Shown: one piece after another, positions 2,413-40,714 of the stretch
Numbering within the stretch: the first letter of the stretch is position 1
How the letters are laid out: every line of letters begins with the position of its first letter
Notes under the pieces: generated by a model
The model's input: only the letters and a program-made list of their open reading frames with translations
Databases searched by the model: none
Told to the model about the DNA's origin: nothing
Position numbers and translations under genes: made by a program
Assembly: GCA_029262115.1 (NCBI GenBank)
Contig: JAJCZZ010000085.1
Coordinates: forward strand, 1-64,000
Source of the DNA: Gemmatimonadota bacterium
GTDB lineage: Bacteria > Gemmatimonadota > Gemmatimonadetes > Longimicrobiales > Gaopeijiaceae
Direction: 5' to 3'
Length of the DNA stretch: 64,000 bases

Positions 2413-5052
2413 ATGATGAAGCGCCAGGGTGCCGTGGTCCGGCGGCTCTACAGAATGGGGCTGCGTCTCTTCCCGTCGCGACTGCGTGAGAACCACGGCG
2501 GTGAGATGGAGGAGATGTTCGCCGATGCCTGGCGCGACGCGTCTCGGCTGGGATGGACCGCGCGGCTGCGGCTCGCCGCCCGCACGACTCGAGATCTGAC
2601 GTTCAACGGGGCCGCGGCGCGGCTTGAAGGAGGAGGGGGGATGGAGACGTGGCGGCAGGACATCAGATACGCGGTGAGAGGGCTCGTTCGTCGACCAGGC
2701 TTCGCCCTGGTTGCGACTTTCACGCTGGCCCTCGGCATTGGGGGGAATACGGCCATCTACAGCATCGTGGACGCGGCCTGGGTCGATGCCCTCCCGTTCC
2801 CGGACGACGACCGTCTGGTCGTTCCATACAACGTCCCCGCACCCGAGCGCGGAGGCGGCTTCGCGGCCTTCTCCGCACCGTTCTACGCCGCGCTCCGGGA
2901 CGCAGGCGCCTTTGCGTCACTCACGGACGTCGTGCCGGGATCGGCCAACGTCGGGGGGGAGGACCGTCCCGAACGCGTCTCGGCGGCGCGGGTGAACGCC
3001 TCCTTTTTCGACGTGGCCGGCATCGCGCCGGCGCACGGCCGGGCGTTCACCGAGGAGGAGGCCGTGCCCGGCGGTCCGGACGTGGTGGTCATCAGCCACG
3101 GCCTGTGGACACGGCGATTCGCGGCGGACCCGAACACCGTCGGTGGCCCGCTTGTCGTGGACGGCACGTCCGCGGTCGTCGTAGGCGTCATGCCGGCCGG
3201 CTTCGACCTGCTATTCCACGACGTGGACCTGTGGCGCCCGACACATGTCGACGAAGCGGCCTTCACGTCGAGCTCGGCGGTGAACAACAATCGGCGCCTG
3301 ATCGGGCGGCTGGACCCCGGCGTGAGCTCCGGCTCCGCCGATGCGCGCCTCACGGCGGCGGTCGATGCCATGCGCCAACGCTTTCCGGACGCGCTCACCC
3401 CATCCCATGACGTCCGCCTCGTGCCGCTACGAGAACATCTCTACGGGAGCGCCCGTGGTAGTCTCGCCGTGCTATCCGGCGCCGTTGCGTTCGTACTTCT
3501 GATCGCCTGCGCCAACCTCGCCAACCTGTTGCTCGTTCGCGGTGAGGCCCGACGCGGTGAACTCGCGGTTCGGGCCGCGTTGGGAGCAAGCCGAGGCCGA
3601 CTCGTCCGCTCGCTCATCACGGAGAGCCTCCTCCTCGCCGTGCTCGGCGGCGCCCTCGGACTGCTCCTGGCGACCGGCGTGCTCGAGGCCGTGCGACCTC
3701 TGGCTCCCGACAACATCCCGACACCCGACAGCGCACTCGACGGATCGGTTCTGGCCGTGACGGCACTGCTCACCCTCGCCACGGGCGTACTGTTCGGACT
3801 GGTGCCGGCCTGGGCCGTTGCCCGGAGCGATCTGCGGAGCGAGTTGATCAGCGGCGGGCAGAGCGGAACGGGAGCGGGACGGCCCGCCGCAGGTTCCGCT
3901 CTCGTCGTCACGGAAGTGGCGCTCACCGCCGTCCTCCTCGTCGGTTCGGGCCTGCTGCTGAACAGCATGTGGCGCCTCCAGAGCGTCGACCCCGGTTTCG
4001 AGACCGAGCACCGCACGCAGGTGCCAGTCGAGTTGGCGGCTGCCCGGTACCCCGACTCCGAGTCGGCTTTGGGATTCCACCGACGCCTCGTCCAACGGGT
4101 CGCCGCACTGCCCGGCGTGGTCGACGCCGGAATGGGTCAGTTCATCCCGATGGCCGGTGCTTCCAACTGGGGATACCAGGTGGAGGGGAAGGAGGAGAAC
4201 GGTGTATCGTTCGCGGATTACACGCTGATAACGCCAGGATATCTGGAAGTGATGGAACAGCGGATAACGCGGGGTCGTGCGCTCACCTGGCAGGACGCCG
4301 AGGTGTCCGCTTCTCCGGTCGTTCTGGTGAGTGAGGCGATGGCACGACGGCGGTGGCCCGGCAAGGACCCGATCGGCCGCCGAATCAACGTGAACCGGGG
4401 CGGCGCGATCTGGAGGGAGGTCGTGGGCGTCGTGTCCGACGTACGAAATCGGTCGCTCGGTGAGGAACCCGGAGATTTGCTGTATTTCCCAGCGATCGGA
4501 CTTCCGATGGCCTCTCCGCGCCAGATGACGCTCGTCGTGCATCACGCGAACGACCGAGCGCCGGTGGCCGAGATGAGGGCCATCCTTTCCTCACTCGACG
4601 CGACGCTGCCCATGTCGCGGATCCAGCCGCTCGAAGAAGTGGTTCGGGCCTCAGAGGGGCGCCGGTTCTTCCTGATGACGTTGCTCGGACTGTTCGCGGC
4701 CATCGCGCTCGCGCTCGCGGCGGTGGGACTCTACGGCGTGGTGTCCTACTCGGTAGCGCTGAGAAGCCGGGAAATCGGACTGCGCATGGCGGTAGGCGCC
4801 AGCCGGGGCTCGGTCGTCGGGATGGTGCTCCGGCAGAGCGCCACCCTGGTCGGTGTCGGGCTGGCGGTGGGTCTGGTGGCGGCCGTGGCGACGTCTCGCC
4901 TATTGGAGAGCGTTCTTTTCGGAGTCGGGGCGACGGACATCGGCACGTACGGGGCGGTCGCCCTCTTCCTCAGCCTCGTGGCCGGACTGGCGACCTGGCT
5001 TCCAGCTGCTCGAGCGACCCGCGTCGATCCGGCCTCGGTGCTCCGAAGGTGA
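2413..5052 (+). CDS. ADOP-type MacB/FtsX permease
   Basis: An 879-residue membrane protein of the 'duplicated orphan permease' type. An N-terminal region of about 80 residues with an amphipathic LRLFPSRLRE segment precedes a first transmembrane helix (RPGFALVATFTLALGIGGNTAIYSIV, about 95-120, split here by its RPGF start). Then come a periplasmic MacB core domain, a three-helix FtsX domain (about 345-470), a second MacB core, and a second FtsX domain ending LFGVGATD...ATRVDPASVLRR. The two halves duplicate the single MacB permease unit. No ATPase gene is nearby, as is typical ('orphan'). Such proteins are thought to work in efflux or lipoprotein/peptide export; the substrate is unknown. It follows padR by 4 bases. 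Confidence 0.85.
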   Translation: MMKRQGAVVRRLYRMGLRLFPSRLRENHGGEMEEMFADAWRDASRLGWTARLRLAARTTRDLTFNGAAARLEGGGGMETWRQDIRYAVRGLVRRPGFALVATFTLALGIGGNTAIYSIVDAAWVDALPFPDDDRLVVPYNVPAPERGGGFAAFSAPFYAALRDAGAFASLTDVVPGSANVGGEDRPERVSAARVNASFFDVAGIAPAHGRAFTEEEAVPGGPDVVVISHGLWTRRFAADPNTVGGPLVVDGTSAVVVGVMPAGFDLLFHDVDLWRPTHVDEAAFTSSSAVNNNRRLIGRLDPGVSSGSADARLTAAVDAMRQRFPDALTPSHDVRLVPLREHLYGSARGSLAVLSGAVAFVLLIACANLANLLLVRGEARRGELAVRAALGASRGRLVRSLITESLLLAVLGGALGLLLATGVLEAVRPLAPDNIPTPDSALDGSVLAVTALLTLATGVLFGLVPAWAVARSDLRSELISGGQSGTGAGRPAAGSALVVTEVALTAVLLVGSGLLLNSMWRLQSVDPGFETEHRTQVPVELAAARYPDSESALGFHRRLVQRVAALPGVVDAGMGQFIPMAGASNWGYQVEGKEENGVSFADYTLITPGYLEVMEQRITRGRALTWQDAEVSASPVVLVSEAMARRRWPGKDPIGRRINVNRGGAIWREVVGVVSDVRNRSLGEEPGDLLYFPAIGLPMASPRQMTLVVHHANDRAPVAEMRAILSSLDATLPMSRIQPLEEVVRASEGRRFFLMTLLGLFAAIALALAAVGLYGVVSYSVALRSREIGLRMAVGASRGSVVGMVLRQSATLVGVGLAVGLVAAVATSRLLESVLFGVGATDIGTYGAVALFLSLVAGLATWLPAARATRVDPASVLRR

Positions 5053-5092: not shown

Positions 5093-6265
5093 TCAGTAGA
5101 GCAGGCTGGGCCGGGCCTCGTCGGTGAAGCGGGCGACCTCCTCCGGCACGCCGCGAAGAATCGCTTCGACGGACGCCCCCCGTTCCAAGCATTCGCGCAG
5201 GGCGTCGGAGCCCCACAGAATATCGATCGGCGGGAGGTTTTCTTCGTACTCGTAAGGCGGTTCGGCCCAGGCAAAGTCCGAGGGAGCCAGCTCCCGCGCC
5301 GCCTTGAACATGGCCACGGCGAGCGTGACTGGACGAAACCGATCGACGTCCGTCGGGTGGATCTGCACACCCCCGCACACCTGGCCGGCGTGCTTCTGAA
5401 ACGTCGGCTGGAACGAACAGGGGCGGAGTTCGAACCCGTCCAGATCGAACTCCCTCAGACGCTGCGCGAATTCCCAGCCGTCCAGCCACGGTGCCCCTAC
5501 CAGTTCGAAGGGCCGTGTGGTACCGCGCCCCTCCGACAGGTTGGTGCCCTCCATCAAGACCATCCCCGGGTACACGACGCAGGAGTCCGGAGTTGGAAGA
5601 TTGGGACTGGGCATCACCCAGGGCAGACCGGTCTCCGCCCAGGTCATGTCGCGTCGCCAACCCTCCATGGCCACCACCTCGAGGTCGACCTCGATGCCAC
5701 GCTCGGCAACGAGCCAGCGGGCCAGTTCGCCGGCCGTCAGAGCGTGACGCAGCGGGACCGGGTGGAGGCCGACAAAGCTTTCGTAGCCCTCGCGCAGGAC
5801 CGGCCCTTCTCGAATGACGCCACCGACCGGGTTCGGGCGGTCGAGCACGACGAAGCGGACACCCGCCTCCGCGCACGCCTCCATGGCCAGCGCCATGGTC
5901 CAGACGAACGTGTACACCCGCACACCGACATCCTGGAGGTCGAAGAAGACCACGTCCAGCCCCTCGAGCATGTCGCGCGTCGGCTTGCGCGTCTCGCTGT
6001 AGAGCGAGTGGACGGGGAGACCGCTCCGCGCGTCCGTGTAGTGGTCGCTCTCGATCATGTTGTCCTGCTTCTCACCCCGGGCGCCGTGTTGCGGCCCGAA
6101 GAGCGTGCGCAGTCGGAAGCCCTCCGCGAGGAGGGCGTCCACAGAGAGCGTAAGGTCCGCCGTCACGGAGGCTGGGTGCAGAACCAGGCCGGCGGAGGCT
6201 TCGCGGAGATGGTCGGCTTGGCCCGCCAGCAGACGGTCGAGGCCAGTCTGTACGGTGGGAGTCAT
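5093..6265 (-). CDS. namZ: NamZ-like exo-beta-N-acetylmuramidase (DUF1343, GH171)
   Basis: A 390-residue protein matching the DUF1343 family, whose Bacillus member NamZ removes non-reducing terminal MurNAc from peptidoglycan fragments during wall recycling. Family motifs visible: FGPQHGARG (56-64), DLQDVGVRVYT (109-119), LDRPNPVGG (about 146-154) and EGTNLSEGRGTTRPFE (about 246-261). No signal peptide is apparent, whereas many relatives are exported; a cytoplasmic recycling role, or an export signal upstream of the chosen start, is possible. It is convergent with the permease at 2413-5052 (40-base gap) and stands alone. Confidence 0.82.
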   Translation of the reverse strand: MTPTVQTGLDRLLAGQADHLREASAGLVLHPASVTADLTLSVDALLAEGFRLRTLFGPQHGARGEKQDNMIESDHYTDARSGLPVHSLYSETRKPTRDMLEGLDVVFFDLQDVGVRVYTFVWTMALAMEACAEAGVRFVVLDRPNPVGGVIREGPVLREGYESFVGLHPVPLRHALTAGELARWLVAERGIEVDLEVVAMEGWRRDMTWAETGLPWVMPSPNLPTPDSCVVYPGMVLMEGTNLSEGRGTTRPFELVGAPWLDGWEFAQRLREFDLDGFELRPCSFQPTFQKHAGQVCGGVQIHPTDVDRFRPVTLAVAMFKAARELAPSDFAWAEPPYEYEENLPPIDILWGSDALRECLERGASVEAILRGVPEEVARFTDEARPSLLY

Positions 6266-6943: not shown

Positions 6944-8164
6944 CTACCGGACTCCCAACTCCTCCTGCACGATCACAGCGAGACCATCCAGCATCGTCAG
7001 CGGCGAGGTCGACAGCACCCCCCGTGTCGACGTGTTGATCTGGAGGGCCAGCGCGAAGCCGCCTTCCTCGAACCAGTAGGCTTCGGTCCGGTAGCCCGGC
7101 ATGAACCCGGAATGGCCGCGGGCCCTCCCGGCGCCTGCCATGGTCATCATGATGACGCCGAGGCCGTACTCCGCCTGCGGTCCGAGCGGAGCAGGTACGC
7201 CATCGGTGAACGGAGCCATGAGCGACCGATCGAAGGCGTGCCCTTCCTGGATGAGCCATGTCCACCGTGCCAGATCCGACGCGGTCGAAGCGAAGCCGCC
7301 CCCACCCCACTCGAACTGCGGGTTGATGACCATGCGCCCAGCCTCGACCATCTCGTCGAAGCCTCCGAACGGGTTGGCCGGCCCCGCGTATCCCTGGGCA
7401 AGCCCCGGGATCTCCGGGCGATCGGAGGGCCGCGTGCCGTCGAAGCCATGTGCGTCGATGACGCGCTCGCGGATCTCAGCGTAGGCGGGGCGCCCCGTCA
7501 CCTCCTCGACGATCATCGCCAGGAGAATGAAATTCGTGTCCGAGTACTCCCATCCTTCACCCGCGGCGAACGGCGCATCCGTGTCGAAGAGGTACGACAG
7601 CCGCTCCTCGGGCGTGAACGACCGCATCGGTTCCGCAGTGAGGTCCTCCAAGAAGGCCGGGTTCAACTCGTAGCGCACGATCCCACTGGTGTGGCGCATC
7701 AGATCGCGCACGGTGGCGGTGCTCCCGTTCGGGATGCGGCCGAACCAGGGCTCATGGCCGAGGTAGGTCGAAACCGGCGCGTCAAGGTCGATCGTCCCCT
7801 CGCCGACGAGTTGCAGCGCGGTGGCGCCGAAGTACGTCTTACCTACGCTCCCTTGCAGCATGAGGTGGCCGGGGGTCATGCGGATGCCTAGAGTGGTATC
7901 CGCCATGCCGGCCGCCTGACCCCATCCGGTGTCGCGGTCGAGGGTGACACCCAGCGTGATGCCGGGGACGCCGACCGGAGCCGCGACGCTGTCGAGCCGC
8001 GCCTGCAGTCGGGTCCGCATCCGGGCAAGATCCTGGGCCTCGATCGGCTGGACGAGGGCCGCCAGGATGAGGGCCGCCAGGATGAGGCAGAGCGAGGCCG
8101 CCACGGCGCTTGCCCGAGCTACGGGCGAACCACGCGAGGCCATGGGCCCGGTCGATTTCTTCAT
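6944..8164 (-). CDS. Secreted serine hydrolase, beta-lactamase/class C-like (S12)
   Basis: About 406 residues from the ATG at 8164; I prefer this to an earlier start at 8269 because it puts the basic MKKSTG... and the hydrophobic stretch (ASLCLILAALILAALVQPIEAQ) where a signal peptide belongs. The active-site S-x-x-K is SVGK (Ser106, Lys109). The second motif reads YSD (Tyr207) where most relatives have Y-x-N. The third is GHSGF near 360. These enzymes cover esterases, D-amino-acid peptidases and beta-lactamases, and sequence alone does not tell which. It overlaps nothing and converges with the permease remnant 9 bases away. Confidence 0.75.
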   Translation of the reverse strand: MKKSTGPMASRGSPVARASAVAASLCLILAALILAALVQPIEAQDLARMRTRLQARLDSVAAPVGVPGITLGVTLDRDTGWGQAAGMADTTLGIRMTPGHLMLQGSVGKTYFGATALQLVGEGTIDLDAPVSTYLGHEPWFGRIPNGSTATVRDLMRHTSGIVRYELNPAFLEDLTAEPMRSFTPEERLSYLFDTDAPFAAGEGWEYSDTNFILLAMIVEEVTGRPAYAEIRERVIDAHGFDGTRPSDRPEIPGLAQGYAGPANPFGGFDEMVEAGRMVINPQFEWGGGGFASTASDLARWTWLIQEGHAFDRSLMAPFTDGVPAPLGPQAEYGLGVIMMTMAGAGRARGHSGFMPGYRTEAYWFEEGGFALALQINTSTRGVLSTSPLTMLDGLAVIVQEELGVR

Positions 8165-22345: not shown

Positions 22346-22749
22346 GTCCCCCCTCCATTCATGGGTTCGTCCGAACTCTCGATGCCGCGGTAGAAGTCGC
22401 AGTCCATCCGGGAGGCCACCGCCCGGTCGATGACCCGCTGCCGTGGCTCGTGGCACACGCCCTGATGCGGGCATCCCCGGCACACTCCCTCCGCCTCCCA
22501 CGCCGTCACTTCCACGGCCGTCCCGCACAGCGAGCACTGGCCCGGGCGCAGGAAGTGGAAGCCAACCAGCCGTCCCGCCTCGTCCAGGCGGAGGAGCTGG
22601 TAGCCGGCACGCGACAGCGCTCGCATCACGTCGATCGCCGCCGCGAACGAGTCCGAGTCGGGAGGACCCTGCAGCGGAATCGCGGTGGCGATGACTTGGC
22701 GGATGCGACGGATCTCAGGGATCCGGCTAGAGGGAGCGGTCTGGGTCAC
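22342..22749 (-). CDS. Cys-rich hypothetical early protein
   Basis: 135 residues from a GTG at 22749 that overlaps the ATPase stop as GTGA. Cysteines cluster at CSLC and CRGCPHQGVC, consistent with one zinc site. The end, DFYRGIESSDEP, resembles the DEPVFYRGFE tail of the protein at 24154-24636. Function unknown; position directly after the transposition ATPase. Confidence 0.5.
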   Translation of the reverse strand: MTQTAPSSRIPEIRRIRQVIATAIPLQGPPDSDSFAAAIDVMRALSRAGYQLLRLDEAGRLVGFHFLRPGQCSLCGTAVEVTAWEAEGVCRGCPHQGVCHEPRQRVIDRAVASRMDCDFYRGIESSDEPMNGGGT

Positions 22750-23891
22750 AGCGCGTAGCCCTGGAGCTGCTCGGGAGTGGCGGCCCACACCGCGTCGACC
22801 TCCTCCTCCGTGACGCGCTCGACGCCCCGCCGCGCTCCGATGTTCATCGCGGCGGCCGCCGCGTTGTGGATCAGGACCGGATACTGTTGGTCGTGTTGGT
22901 TCAGCCGCTTCTCGAGGGCGATCAGCGCCGGCTCCTCCCACGTGTCCAGCACATCACGCCCTACCCACTCGAAACGGCGGGCGATGTACTCGGGCACGTG
23001 GCCAGCCATCGGCTCCAGGGTGATGAGCTGGCAGCGGATGATGGCTTCGCGGAGCCGCGAATTCCGCTCCGCGTCGAACCGGGCCCGAAGCTCCGACTGT
23101 CCGATCAGGATGATGGCCACCAGCTGCGCGTAGCCGTGCCGCAGCTCGTGGTAGCGCTTCAGATCCTTGATGGTGTTGTGCGGCAGCTCATGCGCCTCGT
23201 CGATGACCAGCACCACCCTCTGACCCTGCTCGTAGCGCGTGGCCAGGACCTGCTGAGCCACCGCGTCCCGTACGTTCGCCACACGCGGGATCGTCTCCTC
23301 GGAGAGCTGCCGGATGATCTCGCTCGCGATGTGCGCGGCCGTGAGCTTGCGCCGCTCGATGTTCGCCGGCTGAACGACGACCAGCTTGTCACCGTCGTCC
23401 GCACGCGCCAGGGCGTCGGCCAGGAGTGTCGACTTGCCCGAGCCGGGCTCTCCCGAGACCGCGACGAAGCCCGCCGTCAGAGCGGCCTGCCGCAGACGCT
23501 CCCGCACGAAGAGGTGGCCGGGCGGGAGATAGAGCTCCCTCAGCCCGTCCGGCTGACCAGGGCGGCGCAGGATGCGCGCCTCGCCGTGGAAGGGGTCGGA
23601 GAAGAGCTTGAAATGGGTGCGAGCCGTCTGGCTCAGATGCTGTCCCTGCATGATGGCCTCCGGCGGCTCATGGCCGCCTGCCGATTCTGGGGTGAGTAGA
23701 TCGGGCGTCAGTGCCAGGCCGCGCTCGTCCAGAAGCTCCTGGAGGCATGCGCCCGCATCGATGCCCTTGATGTCCCGTCCCTCGCTGAGGAAGCGGGACC
23801 ACGTCGACTTATCGCAGCCGAACCGATCAGCCAGCGCCGTCGGCCCGACGCCCAGGCCCTCGAGCACGCGCTTCACACGCAGCGCGCTCAT
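22746..23891 (-). CDS. AAA+ transposition ATPase (MuB/TniB/ExeA type)
   Basis: 381 residues. An N-terminal HTH (PTALADRFGCDKSTWSRFL, 17-35) precedes the AAA+ core: Walker A GEPGSGKST (147-155), Walker B VVLVIDEAHEL (227-237), sensor region AIILIGQSELR, and a C-terminal arginine-rich helical lid. The N-terminal HTH plus AAA+ order is that of MuB; the core sequence looks close to the TniB/ExeA group. Such ATPases coat target DNA, choose the insertion site and stimulate the transposase. It lies two genes downstream of the transposase. Confidence 0.85.
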   Translation of the reverse strand: MSALRVKRVLEGLGVGPTALADRFGCDKSTWSRFLSEGRDIKGIDAGACLQELLDERGLALTPDLLTPESAGGHEPPEAIMQGQHLSQTARTHFKLFSDPFHGEARILRRPGQPDGLRELYLPPGHLFVRERLRQAALTAGFVAVSGEPGSGKSTLLADALARADDGDKLVVVQPANIERRKLTAAHIASEIIRQLSEETIPRVANVRDAVAQQVLATRYEQGQRVVLVIDEAHELPHNTIKDLKRYHELRHGYAQLVAIILIGQSELRARFDAERNSRLREAIIRCQLITLEPMAGHVPEYIARRFEWVGRDVLDTWEEPALIALEKRLNQHDQQYPVLIHNAAAAAMNIGARRGVERVTEEEVDAVWAATPEQLQGYAL

Positions 23892-24157
23892 AGCGTCCTC
23901 GGGCGCGAAGCCGTCACGGCGGCCGTCATGCTGAGCGCGCCGAACGGGCCAGCCGACAGCTCGAGATGCACATCGAGCTGCATGCCCGCCGGGCTCCGAG
24001 AGATGAGCTTATTCGCCGCGCTTACCAGAGCGTCGAGACACTCCCGCTGCTCTGGGGTGAGCTGGTCCTCGCATCCCTCCAGGCGCTCGCGTACCGCCTC
24101 GCCTACTCGACGGTAGGCTGCGCCTTTCAGGGCCGAGGTGCGAACCACCAGACTCAT
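23888..24157 (-). CDS. Hypothetical early protein between transposase and ATPase genes
   Basis: 89 residues, helical in the first half (VGEAVRERLEGCEDQLTPEQ), beta-rich in the second. Four-base overlaps at both ends with its neighbours. No family recognised. Confidence 0.45.
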   Translation of the reverse strand: MSLVVRTSALKGAAYRRVGEAVRERLEGCEDQLTPEQRECLDALVSAANKLISRSPAGMQLDVHLELSAGPFGALSMTAAVTASRPRTL

Positions 24158-24636
24158 TCGAATCCGCGGTAGAACACGGGCTCGTCGGCGCCGCCGCGGA
24201 CGTCGCGCACCATCTGGTGCAGCTGCGAGTGGACCTCACGCTGATGCTTCAGCATCGCTTCCTTCAGACTCCGGAGGAGCCGCGAGGTCGTGTCGTAGCA
24301 GACCGGGCACACGTCCACCGCCTTCAGCACGAGATGCGGCTGCGAGTCCTTCGGCCGAGTCAGCGCGCCGCACACGTCGCACGAGACCCGCGGATCCTCC
24401 TCTGCCTGAGGCTCCTCCTCCGCTCTCACGACCGTGAAGCCCTGAGCACCCAGGAGCTCGGCCAGCACGTAGACCGGCATCGTCACGACCTCAAGCTTGG
24501 CGACTCCGCTGCGGTCCTCAGCCAGCTCCTTGCCCAACTCTGCGAGCGCACGGCTTAGGCCCTCCTCCGCGTCCGCGTGAATCCGCCCGGGCTCGCCCGC
24601 AGCCTGTCGCTCCTGTTCCGTCACATCCGTCGTCAT
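24154..24636 (-). CDS. Zinc-ribbon hypothetical early protein
   Basis: 160 residues from the ATG at 24636, preceded by GAGGGGG. CDVCG (about 87-91) and CPVCY (about 112-116) make a four-Cys zinc ribbon with 20-odd residues between the knuckles. The N-terminus is acidic and helical. It starts 37 bases after the transposase stop, the only sizeable gap in this part of the operon. Possible paralogue of 21334-21663. Confidence 0.5.
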   Translation of the reverse strand: MTTDVTEQERQAAGEPGRIHADAEEGLSRALAELGKELAEDRSGVAKLEVVTMPVYVLAELLGAQGFTVVRAEEEPQAEEDPRVSCDVCGALTRPKDSQPHLVLKAVDVCPVCYDTTSRLLRSLKEAMLKHQREVHSQLHQMVRDVRGGADEPVFYRGFE

Positions 24637-24673
24637 CTGCCCCCTCTCTTTCCTTGTGGTGGTGGTGATCGGA

Positions 24674-26320
24674 TCAGGCCCCGTGGACCTGCCGTACATG
24701 CCCAGGCCCGCCGCCCCGTCGCGCATTCATCCACGCGACCAGCTCGGGCTCGGGGATTTCTTTCCGCCCGCCGAACAGGGCGGACAGCGCAGCCCGCTCC
24801 TCGGCGGTGGGCGGTGCGGCCATCAGTCCAGCAGCCTGGGCGCGGTCCGTCGCTTTGCCGCGCCGGATCAGGACCGGGGCCATCTCGCGGCCTGCGGCGA
24901 TCTCGATTAGCTCCGGCCGGTACGCGTAGGTCCGCGTATCTCGATCGACTCGGTAGTCGTGCACGATCAGAGGGTCGATGTGCGTCAGGTCGCGCTTCTG
25001 CAGCTCGCGCTTCTTCGCGACCGCCGCGGGCGTGTCCGCCTTCTTCCATTCGCCCGCCTCGTCGGGCACTGCCTCGACAACGCCGACCTCGTGCTCCTCG
25101 CCATCGAGCATCACCGAGATCGTCGACAGGTCCGCCTCGTGGTAGAACACCGAGACGGTCTTCTTCACGTAATCGACGAACGGCTTGCGGCGGGGCAGCT
25201 GGTACGCCTTCCCCTCCAGCCGGATCGAGAGGTCCGCAGAGATGCGACGGGTGACCTCGCGGCGCAGCACTCGCGCCATGACCTCCTCGGGCGGGAGCAC
25301 GCGCAACGTCCGGGCTGACAGCCACCGCTCGAACGGCGCGACGCCGGTCTCCGAGTGTGGACGGTTGTTCGTCCAGATGAGATACCGCAGCAGGAGACGG
25401 TTCAGCTCCTTTAGCGACGAGACCCTCTTAGCGCGGAGTGTCTTCTCGAAGCCGGTCATGATGACGCCCAGCGAGCGCTCGACCTTCCCCTTCGCCTGTG
25501 CGTTCGTCTCGGCCTCGGTCGAGTGCTGCGCGAGCATGCGCTCGATATTCAGTAGGTCCAGCGTCCGCGTCATCACCCGCGCCTTCATCGCCGAGTCCTG
25601 ATCCGAGTACAGGCGTTCGGGGATGCCGCGGGCTGGCCACGTGGACGTGTCGGGCACGACGCCTCGCATCACCCGGATCAGCATGTCGCGCCACGCTAGC
25701 GCGGAGTTCGCCGTGTAGAAGCGGGCCCACCTCACCCTGCTGTGGTCGTCGATCACCCCGAGCAGCCAGATCCGGGGCTTCTCGTTGCCCGCCTTGGTCT
25801 TGTTGAGAGCGACCGGCGCCTCGTATCCGACGGTGTCATCGGTGTCGATCCACCACGACGCCGCGACGGTCGAGTCCATCTGGTAGAGGTAGCCAGGATG
25901 GGGCGCCTCGAAGCGGCGATGCACCCTCAGATCCTGCGCGTTGTCTCTCCGACTCACGCCCATCCCTCTCAGGATCCGGCGCAGAGTCTCGGGGTGGGCG
26001 TCGAACGCCTCTTCGCCCTCGCGAGCCCGGTTCGCGTTGACCGTGTCCAGCGCGAGCTCGGCGTCGTAGTCGTGCTGCACGACCAGGGCGGCGAGGTCGT
26101 CCAGACCCTGCTCGTCGAACGCCTTCACCGTACCCGCGTCCGAGCGCCGTTTGCGGTTCGGCAGTTCGTCGCGGATCGTGCGGTAGACCGTCGACCAATG
26201 GCAGCCCAGTAGCTCTGCATGGCACTCGCAGAACGGACGCGCGGAGGCGCTCCCCAACGCCCTCGCTTCGAGGCGTAGGGCCTCGCGTTCCGCGTCGGTC
26301 AGTTGTCGTCCTCGGGCCAT
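24674..26320 (-). CDS. MuA-type DDE transposase
   Basis: 548 residues from the ATG at 26320 (5 bases after the previous stop; an in-frame ATG at 26356 is less likely). The N-terminal 130 residues carry HTH segments for end binding. The rve/DDE core shows YQMDSTV (Asp149), LYSDQDSAM (Asp240) and NAQAKGKVERSLG (Glu281), followed by a MuA-C-like beta barrel (LSIRLEGKAYQLP) and a basic tail. It would cut and join the prophage ends at 14912 and 56368. At 548 residues it is shorter than MuA (663), as in the B3-like transposable phages. Confidence 0.88.
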   Translation of the reverse strand: MARGRQLTDAEREALRLEARALGSASARPFCECHAELLGCHWSTVYRTIRDELPNRKRRSDAGTVKAFDEQGLDDLAALVVQHDYDAELALDTVNANRAREGEEAFDAHPETLRRILRGMGVSRRDNAQDLRVHRRFEAPHPGYLYQMDSTVAASWWIDTDDTVGYEAPVALNKTKAGNEKPRIWLLGVIDDHSRVRWARFYTANSALAWRDMLIRVMRGVVPDTSTWPARGIPERLYSDQDSAMKARVMTRTLDLLNIERMLAQHSTEAETNAQAKGKVERSLGVIMTGFEKTLRAKRVSSLKELNRLLLRYLIWTNNRPHSETGVAPFERWLSARTLRVLPPEEVMARVLRREVTRRISADLSIRLEGKAYQLPRRKPFVDYVKKTVSVFYHEADLSTISVMLDGEEHEVGVVEAVPDEAGEWKKADTPAAVAKKRELQKRDLTHIDPLIVHDYRVDRDTRTYAYRPELIEIAAGREMAPVLIRRGKATDRAQAAGLMAAPPTAEERAALSALFGGRKEIPEPELVAWMNARRGGGPGHVRQVHGA

Positions 26321-26325
26321 CGTCT

Positions 26326-26526
26326 CTATCGCTCCAGCCGGACCACAGCACGCCACGTTCTGGGCGTGCGCTCAATGGATTCGGCCCCCGCCGGCTCCGC
26401 TGCTCGGGCACGCAGCGCGACGATCCGCGCGATGCCGTTCCGGATCCGACCCACTGCGATCACCACCACCGACTCCGGCGGATGCGCGGCATAGAAGCGC
26501 GCAGCGCGGAGGTCCTCAGGTGTCAC
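26326..26526 (-). CDS. Small hypothetical early protein
   Basis: 66 residues from a GTG at 26526 that overlaps the upstream stop as GTGA. Contains a single hydrophobic beta-alpha segment (ESVVVIAVGRIRNGIARIV). No family recognised; lies just before the transposase. Confidence 0.4.
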   Translation of the reverse strand: MTPEDLRAARFYAAHPPESVVVIAVGRIRNGIARIVALRARAAEPAGAESIERTPRTWRAVVRLER

Positions 26527-31143: not shown

Positions 31144-31644
31144 GTGAGCGACGTCACCAAGCCGGACCGGGATCTCACCAAGGTCCACCCGCTGCTGCAG
31201 CTGCGGCTTCTGTCCTTCTTCCAGGAGTGCGGACGGCGGAAGGTCAGCGTGTTCATCACCGAGGGCTACCGCTCAGGTGAGCGTCAGGACTGGCTGTACG
31301 CCCGGGGCCGGACGCGCGACACGTCACGCCCCGTGCTCACCTACGCGAAGGCGGGCCAGTCGTACCACAACCTCCTGATCATGGATCAGCCCTGCTCCGC
31401 CGCGGTGGACGTGGCGGTCTGGGACGAGGACACGCCCTGGTCGAAGAGCCTGGAGTGGTCGGGGTCCGCGAAGGAGTGGGAGAAGGTACACGCTGCGGCC
31501 GAGGCCGCTGGCCTTCAGACGCTCAACTTCGAGAAGCCGCACATCCAGCTCCCCTACGCCCTGGATGACCTGCGCGCGGGCGCCCACTGGATCGACCTCG
31601 GTCCGATGACGCCGCTGCTTCGGCCTCGGGATCCAGAGGCATGA
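31144..31644 (+). CDS. Endolysin, M15-type L-Ala-D-Glu/D-Ala peptidase
   Basis: 166 residues from a GTG. FFQECGRRKVSVFITEGYRS (25-44) followed by SYHN...AVDVAVWD and EKPHIQ matches the M15 VanY/endolysin peptidase pattern, with zinc ligands His (SYH), Asp (AVD) and His (PHIQ). An insertion lengthens the segment between the first two ligands. It would cut peptidoglycan stem peptides at lysis. It heads the late operon, next to small coiled-coil and membrane proteins likely to be the rest of the lysis cassette. Confidence 0.78.
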   Translation: MSDVTKPDRDLTKVHPLLQLRLLSFFQECGRRKVSVFITEGYRSGERQDWLYARGRTRDTSRPVLTYAKAGQSYHNLLIMDQPCSAAVDVAVWDEDTPWSKSLEWSGSAKEWEKVHAAAEAAGLQTLNFEKPHIQLPYALDDLRAGAHWIDLGPMTPLLRPRDPEA

Positions 31645-37496: not shown

Positions 37497-39830
37497 ATGC
37501 CTCGCCGCCTCCAGGAGCAGAGCCTCGAAGCCACGGTCGACGCGGTCTACCGCTCGATCTGGTCGTACAACGATGCGCTCGAGTCGGATGACCCGGGCCG
37601 GTGGAACGTGCTCGATATCCACGACGACTTCGTCGTGGTGCGTCGCGGTCGCGACATGCTGCGCGTGCCATACTCGTTCGACGACAACGGCATTGCGGTG
37701 TTCGGCGAGCCGGAGGAAGTCGAGATGGAGCTGGAGCCCGTGGCCGAAGCCGCGGTCCAGACGCTCCGGGTCGGCGCGCTCCTGGAGGCGGCGAAGAAGG
37801 ACGGATGGACCTGGGACGTCGTGGTCATCCAGCCCGGCTGGTCAAAGAACGGGCGCTACTACCCGCGTGACGTGCTGGCTGCGGCCGTCGAGAACCAACT
37901 GTTCGAGGGCGTGAAGGTCTGCGTGTTCCCGGAGATCGACCTGGGCCACCACCGCAACGCGCTGAAGAAGAACTGGGACCGCCAGATCGGATGGTTGGAG
38001 GCGGTACGCGTGGGTGAGTCGGGCGAGATCCGCGCGACGCTGCAGTTCCTACATGCCCCGCTCGCCGACCGTCTCCGAGCGTACATGCTCGAGCAGTGGA
38101 CCCAGCACAAGAAGGACCTGGGATTGTCGATCGACGCCCGCGGAACGGTCGCGGAAGTCGACACCCCGGACGGCCCGCGCACGGTCGTCCTCAGCCTCAC
38201 CGAGGCGCTGAGCCTCGATGTGGTCGTACACCCCGCCGCCGGCGGGCAATTCACTCAACTGGTGGCCGCAATGGCCGCCGTTCCCGAGGAGGATCAGATG
38301 GATCCGCAGCTGAAGCGACTGTGGGATCTCCTCCAGGCCCGCCGGCCCGAAGCCCTGACTGGCCTGGATGAGAAGACCGTGACCTTGGCGCAGCTCACTG
38401 AGCAGCTGACCGATGACGAGCTGAGCCGAGCGCTCACCGAGGAGGAGGAGGCGCCGACCGAGGAGCCCCCGGCCACCGATGGACTGCAGGAGGCCGCGCC
38501 GTCGAACGACGACGTGCGTCGTGACCTGACGAAATTCCGGGTCGATCACCTCCTCGAGGCGTCGAAGCTGCCCGAGCTGGCCCGGAAGAAGCTGCGTGCC
38601 CGCTTCGAGGGGCGGATCGCCACCGAGGATCAGATCCGGGAAGCGATCAGCGACGAGCGTGACTACCTGGCAGAGATGGCGCCCGCTCGTGTGGCGGGCC
38701 TCGGAGGCACACGCGACGGAGCCGGGCTCCGTGTCGGTGCGGGCAAGGCCGAGAAGCTGCAGGCTGGCTTCGACCGCGCGTTCGGCTTGGTGCCGGAGAA
38801 CGCGGATCTGGCCGACGTCGCGCCCCTTGGTCTCCGTCGGCTGTACGACGAGATCACGATGGGCCACGACTCCGGCGTGACGGGCATCCTGTCCGAGCAG
38901 GCCGAGTCCGACATGCTCCAGGAGGCGTTCACGAACGCCACCCTGCCGCGCGTGGTGCTGAACACCATGCACCGCCGGCTCTTGCAGGACTACCGCGCGA
39001 TCGACTACCGCGAGCGGGATCTGATCAGCGTGACTCAGGCCGCGGACTTCAAGACCCGCGAGGTCATCCGGCTGGGCGGGTTCGGCGACATTCCCACCGT
39101 CGATCCTGAGGCCGCCGACTACGCCGAGCTCGCCGCGTTCGGTGACCAATACGAGCAGTACAGCGTCGGCCAGAAGGGCGCGATCGTCACCATCACCCGC
39201 AAGCACATCGTGAACGACGACGTCGGCGCGTTCTCGCGGGTGAGCACCAAGCTCGGCCGGGCGTCGCGCAGGACGTTTGCCAAGTTCGTGTACGGGTTCT
39301 TCAGCTCGAATCCGAACATGCAGGACGGGAACGCGTGGTTCAGCGTGGCGCATGCCAACCTCGGCACAACGGCCTTCAGCGCGGCGCAGCTCGATGCCGC
39401 GCGCCTGGCCATGTACAACCAGACCGAGCCGGACTCGGCTGAGAAGCTCGGCTTCGCGCCGCACTACCTCCTCTTGCCGATTGACCTGGAGAAGTCGGCG
39501 GAGGACATCAACCAGACCGACAGGGTGGTTGGCTCGGCCAACAACGACGCGAACCGCTGGTACCACAAGTTCGGAAAGGAGAACGAGCGCATCATCGTCG
39601 TGCCGTTCTTCGCCGACGCGAACGACTGGGTCGTGACCGCGGATCCCTCGATGGTCGACATCATCGAGGTCGCCTTCCTCAACGGACAGGAAGAGCCGGA
39701 GATGTTCATCGCCGACGCTCCGACCGTCGGGCAGATGTTCGTCGCGGACAAGGTGCAGCTCAAGATCCGGCACGAGTACGGCGGCGCGCCCGTCGACCAT
39801 CGCGGCGTCTGGAAGGCGGTGGTCGTCTGA
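37497..39830 (+). CDS. Fused prohead protease-scaffold-major capsid protein
   Basis: 777 residues. Residues about 80-260 look like a capsid maturation protease (KDGWTWDVVVIQPGWSKNGR, later LSIDARGTV and LSLDVVVHPAAGG). Residues about 268-430 are charged and helical as in scaffolds (QLTEQLTDDELSRALTEEEE). Residues about 440-777 have major-capsid features (RRLLQDYRAIDYRERDLISV, VTITRKHIVNDDVGAFSRV, ANLGTTAFSAAQLDAAR) like the Mu gpT-type coat. No stop or frame break separates the parts. A strong internal start (see 38286-38300) could give scaffold-capsid without protease. Cleavage near 430 would release mature coat. Confidence 0.8.
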   Translation: MPRRLQEQSLEATVDAVYRSIWSYNDALESDDPGRWNVLDIHDDFVVVRRGRDMLRVPYSFDDNGIAVFGEPEEVEMELEPVAEAAVQTLRVGALLEAAKKDGWTWDVVVIQPGWSKNGRYYPRDVLAAAVENQLFEGVKVCVFPEIDLGHHRNALKKNWDRQIGWLEAVRVGESGEIRATLQFLHAPLADRLRAYMLEQWTQHKKDLGLSIDARGTVAEVDTPDGPRTVVLSLTEALSLDVVVHPAAGGQFTQLVAAMAAVPEEDQMDPQLKRLWDLLQARRPEALTGLDEKTVTLAQLTEQLTDDELSRALTEEEEAPTEEPPATDGLQEAAPSNDDVRRDLTKFRVDHLLEASKLPELARKKLRARFEGRIATEDQIREAISDERDYLAEMAPARVAGLGGTRDGAGLRVGAGKAEKLQAGFDRAFGLVPENADLADVAPLGLRRLYDEITMGHDSGVTGILSEQAESDMLQEAFTNATLPRVVLNTMHRRLLQDYRAIDYRERDLISVTQAADFKTREVIRLGGFGDIPTVDPEAADYAELAAFGDQYEQYSVGQKGAIVTITRKHIVNDDVGAFSRVSTKLGRASRRTFAKFVYGFFSSNPNMQDGNAWFSVAHANLGTTAFSAAQLDAARLAMYNQTEPDSAEKLGFAPHYLLLPIDLEKSAEDINQTDRVVGSANNDANRWYHKFGKENERIIVVPFFADANDWVVTADPSMVDIIEVAFLNGQEEPEMFIADAPTVGQMFVADKVQLKIRHEYGGAPVDHRGVWKAVVV
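38286..38300 (+). promoter_or_regulatory. Internal ribosome site and in-frame start in capsid gene
   Basis: GAGGAGG (38286-38292), a 5-base spacer and ATG (38298-38300) in frame with the capsid gene. Translation here would begin at Met268, exactly at the boundary between protease-like and scaffold-like parts, giving a 510-residue scaffold-capsid product. It copies the nested protease/scaffold logic of lambda C/Nu3 and Mu I/Z. Confidence 0.6.
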
Positions 39831-39851
39831 TCCACGCGTAGCACGGGCAAC

Positions 39852-39905
39852 GTGGGAGGCCCTGGGGGTGCCGCGGCAGGACCGGCGCGGCGCCCCGACT
39901 CCCAC
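39852..39905 (+). ncRNA. Long two-part RNA hairpin after the capsid gene
   Basis: Outer stem GTGGGAG (39852-39858) with CTCCCAC (39899-39905); inner 11-bp stem GGGGTGCCGCG (39865-39875) with CGCGGCGCCCC (39886-39896, one G-U pair), loop of 10. It begins 21 bases after the capsid stop. No U tract follows, so it is more likely an mRNA-stabilising or processing structure than a terminator. Confidence 0.5.
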
Positions 39906-39911
39906 CACCCT

Positions 39912-40006
39912 GGCGGGTGATGAGGATGGTGATTCGATGGAGGCGCCCCCCCTCCGTCCCCTGGGCCCTCGGACGACCCAGGCCGGTTCGATTCCGGCTC
40001 CCGCCA
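39912..40006 (+). ncRNA. tRNA-like element with long variable arm
   Basis: The 3' part is a textbook T arm: GCCGG-TTCGATT-CCGGC (39982-39998), containing the full B-box GGTTCGATTCC, followed by TCCCGCC and a discriminator A. GGCGGG (39912-39917) pairs with CCCGCC (40000-40005) as an acceptor stem. GGAGG-CGCCCCC-CCTCC (39939-39955) has the 5-7-5 shape of an anticodon arm, with CCC in the anticodon place, and CTGGG/CCCAG (39961-39981) would be a type II variable arm. Against a working tRNA: no U33, no clear D stem, and a mismatch at 7-66. It may be a degenerate tRNA or a tRNA-mimic. Confidence 0.35.
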
Positions 40007-40036
40007 TTTGAACACCACACCGTTGAGACGAGATCG

Positions 40037-40714
40037 ATGCCGCTAAACAACAGCGCTGACTACCGCACCGCCATCCAGGCCCTGGTCAGGGACGGCGGCA
40101 GCGTGCTCGTCGATCCCGATGACTACGACCGAATGCTCGAGGACGCGCTGAAGCGGCTGGCCAAAGCGGAGCCGCGGCGGGTCGTCGTCGACGTCGACGG
40201 CGACGGCGGGTTCGACTACGTCCTCCCCGCTCCCTTCGACGCCGCGTTCAGCCGTGTCCTGGAGGTCGAGTATCCGGCCGGGCAGCGGCAGCGCTGCATG
40301 GTCGATCGACTGGATTGGGAGCTGTACGAGGCGCCCGCAGGCCCCGCCCTGCGCTTCCTCGTCGACACGCCCGCCGTCGGCGAGACCATCCGCGTCATGC
40401 ACACCGCGCTGCACGTCGTCGACGCGGGAAGCTCTACGGTGCCGTCCGCTCGCGAGGATGCAGTGAAGCTCCTCGCGGCCGCGCTCTGCTGCGAGGCGCT
40501 CTCGGCGCACTACAGCAACTCGGGCGACGCGCTGATTGGAGCGGACTCGGTCGACCACAAGTCGAAGGCATCCGAGTACGCAGCCCGGGCGAAGCGGTTC
40601 ATGAAGCTGGCCGAAGACCTCCTTCCGGTGGAGGAGCTCGGCGAGGCAGCAGCGGCCAGTGGGTTCGGCGCGATCGGCGTCGACCAAGACTTCCTCACGC
40701 ACCCGAACCGCTGA
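40037..40714 (+). CDS. Head-tail connector/completion protein (putative)
   Basis: 225 residues from the ATG at 40037; longer frames upstream would run through the structured RNA. Helical N-terminus (YRTAIQALVRDGGSVLVDPD), beta-rich middle and a C-terminal helical end (YAARAKRFMKLAEDLLPVEE). Placement directly after the capsid gene and before the gp10-like gene is that of head-tail adaptors (gp6/gp15-like). No decisive motif. Confidence 0.55.
   Translation: MPLNNSADYRTAIQALVRDGGSVLVDPDDYDRMLEDALKRLAKAEPRRVVVDVDGDGGFDYVLPAPFDAAFSRVLEVEYPAGQRQRCMVDRLDWELYEAPAGPALRFLVDTPAVGETIRVMHTALHVVDAGSSTVPSAREDAVKLLAAALCCEALSAHYSNSGDALIGADSVDHKSKASEYAARAKRFMKLAEDLLPVEELGEAAAASGFGAIGVDQDFLTHPNR

Follow-up and report, generated by a model that had tools for sequence, protein, structure and literature searches.

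A non-canonical tRNA-like element downstream of the capsid gene in the head cluster of a predicted Mu-like prophage

In the head gene cluster of a predicted prophage of a Gemmatimonadota bacterium, what occupies the 206 nt between the end of the capsid ORF (39830) and the next homology-supported start codon (ATG 40037)? The locus lies in a 64,000-nt stretch of DNA (contig JAJCZZ010000085.1, positions 1 to 64,000), hereafter called the window. Based on gene order, we infer that the stretch from the capsid gene to the gene at 40037 is one co-transcribed operon. The ORF 39917-40714, which would code through the tRNA-like element described below, was rejected since the homologue in a related phage (L069) begins at an ATG equivalent to 40037, although the reading frame of the downstream gene is open across the element. 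A PHROG search with gene 40037..40714 gave no match.

The gap behind the capsid gene

The locus was composed of two genes and two structured segments:

37497..39830, plus strand: protease / major capsid fusion gene (PHROG 4523/133, head maturation protease - major head protein, E 2.5e-58)
39852..39905, plus strand: stem-loop in two parts, of 7 bp and 11 bp, lacking a U-run and ending 5 nt 5' of the tRNA-like element (MFE fold)
39911..40006, plus strand: tRNA-like element, whole (cloverleaf MFE fold; syntenic and covarying in seven phages)
40037..40714, plus strand: head-cluster gene 3' of the element, function not assigned, starting 30 nt past it (59% identical to the L069 homologue, with matching ATG)

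The hairpin had an MFE of -40.1 kcal/mol (z -2.58), which was equalled by 2 of 200 shuffles. The MFE fold of the isolated segment 39911-40006 was a cloverleaf with the following parts:

39912..39919, plus strand: acceptor stem 5' strand GGCGGGTG, pairing with 39998-40005 with one U-U mismatch
39920..39935, plus strand: degenerate D region by sequence, GG kept in the loop, stem not clear
39936..39958, plus strand: anticodon-arm equivalent GATGGAGG-CGCCCCC-CCTCCGTC, 8 bp, without U33 (five inner pairs covary)
39959..39982, plus strand: long variable-arm-like stem CTGGG/CCCAG (MFE fold; L069 has an equivalent but different arm, CCGGTG/CACCGG)
39983..39997, plus strand: T-arm CCGG-TTCGATT-CCGG with a 4-bp core (conservation); a fifth pair is possible via G39982-C39998
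39998..40006, plus strand: acceptor stem 3' strand CTCCCGCC and a discriminator-like A, by sequence; CCA is not encoded

The acceptor contained six G/C pairs and an outer U39911-A40006 pair, with the U-U mismatch inside. With its outer pair, the T-arm reads GCCGG-TTCGATT-CCGGC (39982-39998), and its UUCRANN-type loop (TTCGATT, 39987-39993) was conserved in all seven phages. The coaxial stack measured 11-12 bp with the 4-bp T-stem core, compared with the regular 7+5. The anticodon-equivalent loop CGCCCCC carried G at position 33, so that the canonical U33 and an anticodon were missing. GG was present in the D region, the stem of which was weak in the fold; a clear D arm was seen in L133 and a possible one in L136. 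CCA was not encoded in most host tRNA genes either. A sequence-only reading of this DNA had described 206 bases after the capsid gene with an 18-bp two-part hairpin, a perfect T-arm, a 6-bp acceptor-like stem, a 5-7-5 arm and a long variable-arm-like stem, but neither a proper D arm nor U33. Our analysis agrees with this description and extends it with the outer acceptor pair, the internal mismatch and the lengthening of the 5-7-5 arm to 8 bp (GATGGAGG/CCTCCGTC).

The sequence-only reading had also proposed a check with tRNAscan-SE or Infernal and type II models. ARAGORN called no tRNA in the window, and the general tRNA model RF00005, searched over the whole genome at E up to 10, did not match in it; nothing was found with RF00005 in five clade records searched. 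The best Rfam match of the window was the selenocysteine tRNA (tRNA-Sec, RF01852), at 25.7 bits where the gathering score is 47; its E value was 0.91 in a search of the entire window with all families. RF01852 was the best Rfam match for the window, L112, L133 and L136 (22.7-26.2 bits). An 8-bp acceptor and a long variable arm in the window and L069 resemble this tRNA, but the element stays below the cut-off, lacks the UCA anticodon and does not fit in the D arm. Its fold energy was ordinary for its composition (z -0.24 against shuffles, window alone), and a descriptor of T-arm plus acceptor occurred 0.45 times per 64 kb in shuffles, or about every 140 kb by chance. Judged from the window sequence alone, the element is close to chance and the case for it is weak. 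Its significance comes from relatives: each of the six members found of one capsid clade carries it in the same place, and its stems covary.

The element in related phages

Queries with the downstream gene and capsid alignments revealed closer relatives, and a tree was constructed from 43 capsid C-termini. The window formed one capsid clade with L069, L112, L133, L214 and L136 (support 99/96); L136 sat on a long branch and its exact placement is less sure. In these five relatives the tRNA-like element was located downstream of the capsid gene and upstream of the gene 40037 homologue; in several it was flanked by a small extra gene on one or both sides. The element was thus found in 6/6 found members of the clade (window included). 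In a seventh phage (L215), placed next to the element-free L232, ARAGORN called a tRNA-Met(CAT) at the same locus, scoring 49.2 bits with RF00005. The distance from the element's 3' end to the next start codon was 20-53 nt in six of the seven phages. A strong hairpin preceded the element in five of them (window, L069, L112, L133 and L136) and directly adjoined it in the window, L069 and L136.

At this site most capsid relatives of 33-38% identity had just a hairpin or a short gap. The element was not found in distant capsid relatives (L042-L067 and Microcystis phage Mae-JY22), and host-related genomes searched for prophage relatives contained no full-length capsid relative. DNA-level similarity in phage records was limited to short matches at chance level. 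Scanning viral contigs with the downstream gene gave no further clade member, and a DNA pattern scan of viral contigs gave mostly true tRNA-Met genes, with L214 as the only new clade member.

Structured DNA was also seen behind other capsid genes. Many distant relatives, among them L043 and L044 (about 7205-7290) and L059 (7379-7436), had a stable hairpin right behind the capsid gene, without the tRNA-like element. The post-capsid gap of Mae-JY22 (L004, 8345-8494) was strongly structured (z -3.6, no shuffle as good) with a terminator-like hairpin at its end; neither a tRNA-like fold nor an Rfam family was found in it. L056 had a structured 199-nt gap after the capsid gene (5973-6171) with a possible pseudoknot (GGGG/CCCC and CCAGC/GCTGG).

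Covariation was assessed on 16 pairs from the acceptor, the anticodon-arm stem and the T-arm, aligned as a gap-free core in seven phages. Standard pairs filled 98.2% of the 112 pair cells, and changes on both sides occurred in 11 of the 16 pairs, compared with a shuffled mean of 3.4 and none of 500 shuffles as high, in a count for which the segmentation was made by hand and leans in favour of structure. The signal was destroyed when partner columns were slid by 1-3. All five inner pairs of the anticodon-arm equivalent covaried across the seven phages. With single-sequence shuffles given the same freedom, support per stem was modest (p 0.06 to 0.65), and the log10 product over the set was -9.5. 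The 15-nt T-arm was 80-100% identical among the seven phages, against 40-59% pairwise identity at capsid four-fold sites, which is near saturation. The sequence-only reading had named a lack of covariation together with a T-arm not conserved in relatives as grounds for abandoning it; the T-arm identity and the covarying pairs instead favour it.

The anticodon loops, in contrast to the T-arm, were variable in sequence and ranged from 7 to 11 nt: CGCCCCC (window), AACGCCCTTG, CCGTCCA, CCGGGAATCAT, CTCATGC (L136), CCACCCATCAA and GACATCC. U33 with CAT in a 7-nt loop was found only in L136, one of the six clade members. The conserved T-arm next to such differing loops indicates that the phages retained the body of the tRNA but not its decoding part. 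Judged by this comparison, the element is a tRNA-derived, apparently non-decoding RNA under selection.

Origin and possible role

Derivation of the element from a tRNA is well supported, because L215 carries an ARAGORN-detectable tRNA-Met at the same place. Of the host tRNAs, the initiator-type tRNA-Met was the best alignment partner of L215, with 57 identical positions, and also of L214. By alignment, initiator tRNA-Met descent looks clear for L215 and likely for L214, and the tRNA-Met of L215 is likely the ancestor type of the element. Matches of the family T-arm/acceptor pattern in viral contigs were mainly phage tRNA-Met genes. For the window, L069, L133 and L136 the nearest host tRNA was ambiguous, with tRNA-Gly(gcc) or type II tRNAs (Ser) scoring equally, and therefore we do not claim an fMet origin for every element. 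Among the readings offered from the sequence alone (degenerate tRNA, mimic, processing signal), derivation from a tRNA was strengthened by L215; nothing supported recruitment of a synthetase or raised capsid mRNA levels.

The acceptor and T-arm are the parts of a tRNA that RNase P and RNase Z read. The host encodes both enzymes (RNase P RNA, 273.9 bits; RNase Z, 321.8 bits), and RNase P processing of the element is plausible. We tentatively favour, at a confidence just short of even, that the element is a punctuation mark in the late head transcript, derived from a tRNA that has lost decoding. In this reading, RNase P of the host would cleave at the 5' boundary of the element and RNase Z behind the discriminator base. 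The products would include a capsid mRNA protected at its 3' end by the neighbouring hairpin, and an mRNA for the head gene downstream whose leader would be about 30 nt long. The cleavages and the effect on mRNA levels are what we infer; the conserved body, the hairpin upstream in 5/7 phages and the start codon 20-53 nt downstream in 6/7 form the layout to be expected of tRNA punctuation. The lack of an encoded CCA in the element as in most host tRNA genes, and the tRNA-Met genes of a second set of phages (see below), also count in favour. Against it stand the irregular coaxial stack with its 4-bp T-stem core, the missing RF00005 matches, and the more distant capsid relatives that manage without the element. 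A more detailed version, which we consider possible but hold with less confidence, is that a captured tRNA, probably an initiator tRNA-Met, was domesticated as an anticodon-free RNase P/RNase Z mark between the capsid and downstream head genes, which would be the bacterial, virus-borne equivalent of tRNA punctuation in mitochondria, and that a second phage group with a similar capsid protein may use tRNA-Met likewise between terminase and portal.

The conserved parts of the element are also read by many tRNA-binding proteins, and its position upstream of a start codon in most of the phages would suit a 5' leader regulating the downstream gene. It might act, either within the transcript or after excision, as a tethered tRNA mimic or decoy that binds a tRNA-handling protein such as EF-Tu, the CCA-adding enzyme, formyltransferase or a tRNA-attacking toxin. 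Counter-defence has been proposed for phage tRNAs with altered anticodon loops (PMC10264068). The target of anticodon nucleases, however, is the anticodon arm, which the element has not conserved; no link to defence was seen, and the location within the operon is better explained by processing. We regard a mimic, decoy or leader as rather unlikely.

Decoding itself could have been retained, in which case the element would be a divergent, initiator-like phage tRNA that adds to or replaces the host tRNA pool. The tRNA-Met(CAT) of L215, the CTCATGC loop kept in L136 and the intact tRNA-Met genes with similar 3' sequence in many phages are consistent with this. In the window, L069, L112, L133 and L214, however, U33 and an anticodon in a 7-nt loop were missing and RF00005 found no match, which makes a functional tRNA improbable. 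There is similarly little likelihood that the element is a pseudogene, a phage tRNA gene in functionless decay. Erosion of the anticodon and D arm and the nearly intact tRNA gene at the locus in L215 would suit this, but the T-arm is far more conserved than the capsid four-fold sites, stem changes are compensatory and the element was retained in every clade member found. A chance fold in GC-rich DNA, to which the shuffle results for the window alone would point, or a tRNA fragment of an attachment site is very improbable in view of synteny and covariation in seven phages on the one hand, and of Mu-like transposition genes and the lack of a host tRNA match on the other.

These transposition genes lie on the minus strand of the window (22749-26356) and comprise a transposase with an rve core (PHROG 310, E 9.9e-37) and a transposition ATPase (PHROG 296, E 1.1e-37); the window is thus predicted to hold a Mu-like transposable prophage. 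No tRNA with the element's 3' end was found in the host genome, in which the element was single-copy except for an imperfect site with 3 mismatches. A tRNA attachment site was therefore rejected. An endolysin-like gene was located in the window at 31144-31644.

Comparison with known systems and other phages

In t-elements and mitochondrial tRNA punctuation, a tRNA or tRNA-like structure sits between coding regions and its excision makes mRNA ends. The window element is likewise a non-decoding tRNA-like fold between coding regions of an apparent operon; it differs in being in the late operon of a bacterial virus and in having a strong hairpin in front, and its cleavage is a prediction. Phage tRNA-Met/tRNA-fMet genes, for instance those of phiLM21-like prophages (PMC12429752), share the acceptor and T-arm with the element and most of their sequence with L215 and L214, L215 itself being such a gene at the same locus. 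In the window clade, however, the anticodon loop has been modified or is missing, and tRNA finders usually miss the element. Theta (HDV-like) ribozymes by phage tRNAs (PMC10879173) are also structured RNAs beside a tRNA-like unit, but these ribozymes are joined to the 3' end of the tRNA and have their cleavage site beside it, whereas the window has a plain hairpin on the 5' side. The Rfam search of the window matched no ribozyme family, although the theta subgroup may be absent from Rfam.

The reason why single tRNA genes occur in phages remains a matter of debate (PMC10264068). This phage lineage appears to have kept the tRNA body over a long evolutionary distance after losing the anticodon, and such a separation of body from decoding makes a non-translational role of a phage tRNA testable. 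If RNase P and RNase Z cut the element, tRNA maturation in the host would determine the dosage of capsid mRNA, and lone tRNA genes in other phage head operons would merit the same question.

In a second set of phages, whose protease-capsid gene is similar at about 25% identity, tRNA-Met genes were present in the TerL-portal gap (L307 3071-3142; L318 5167-5235; L341 197-268; L358 about 3536-3605; L326 about 927-1000). These come just after a hairpin resembling an intrinsic terminator, and a start codon often follows at a distance of 10-14 nt. The CAT anticodon loop was kept in most; the anticodon arms of L318, L326 and L358 were eroded. These examples, which are not a systematic count, suggest that anticodon loss with retention of the body may have happened more than once.

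The host bin (G000) contained two tRNA clusters (C96 77623-78698 and C109 8737-11187) with overlapping sets of Ser, Pro, Gln, Thr, Ala, Val and Arg tRNAs; one of them may be a mobile tRNA array or a strain duplicate.
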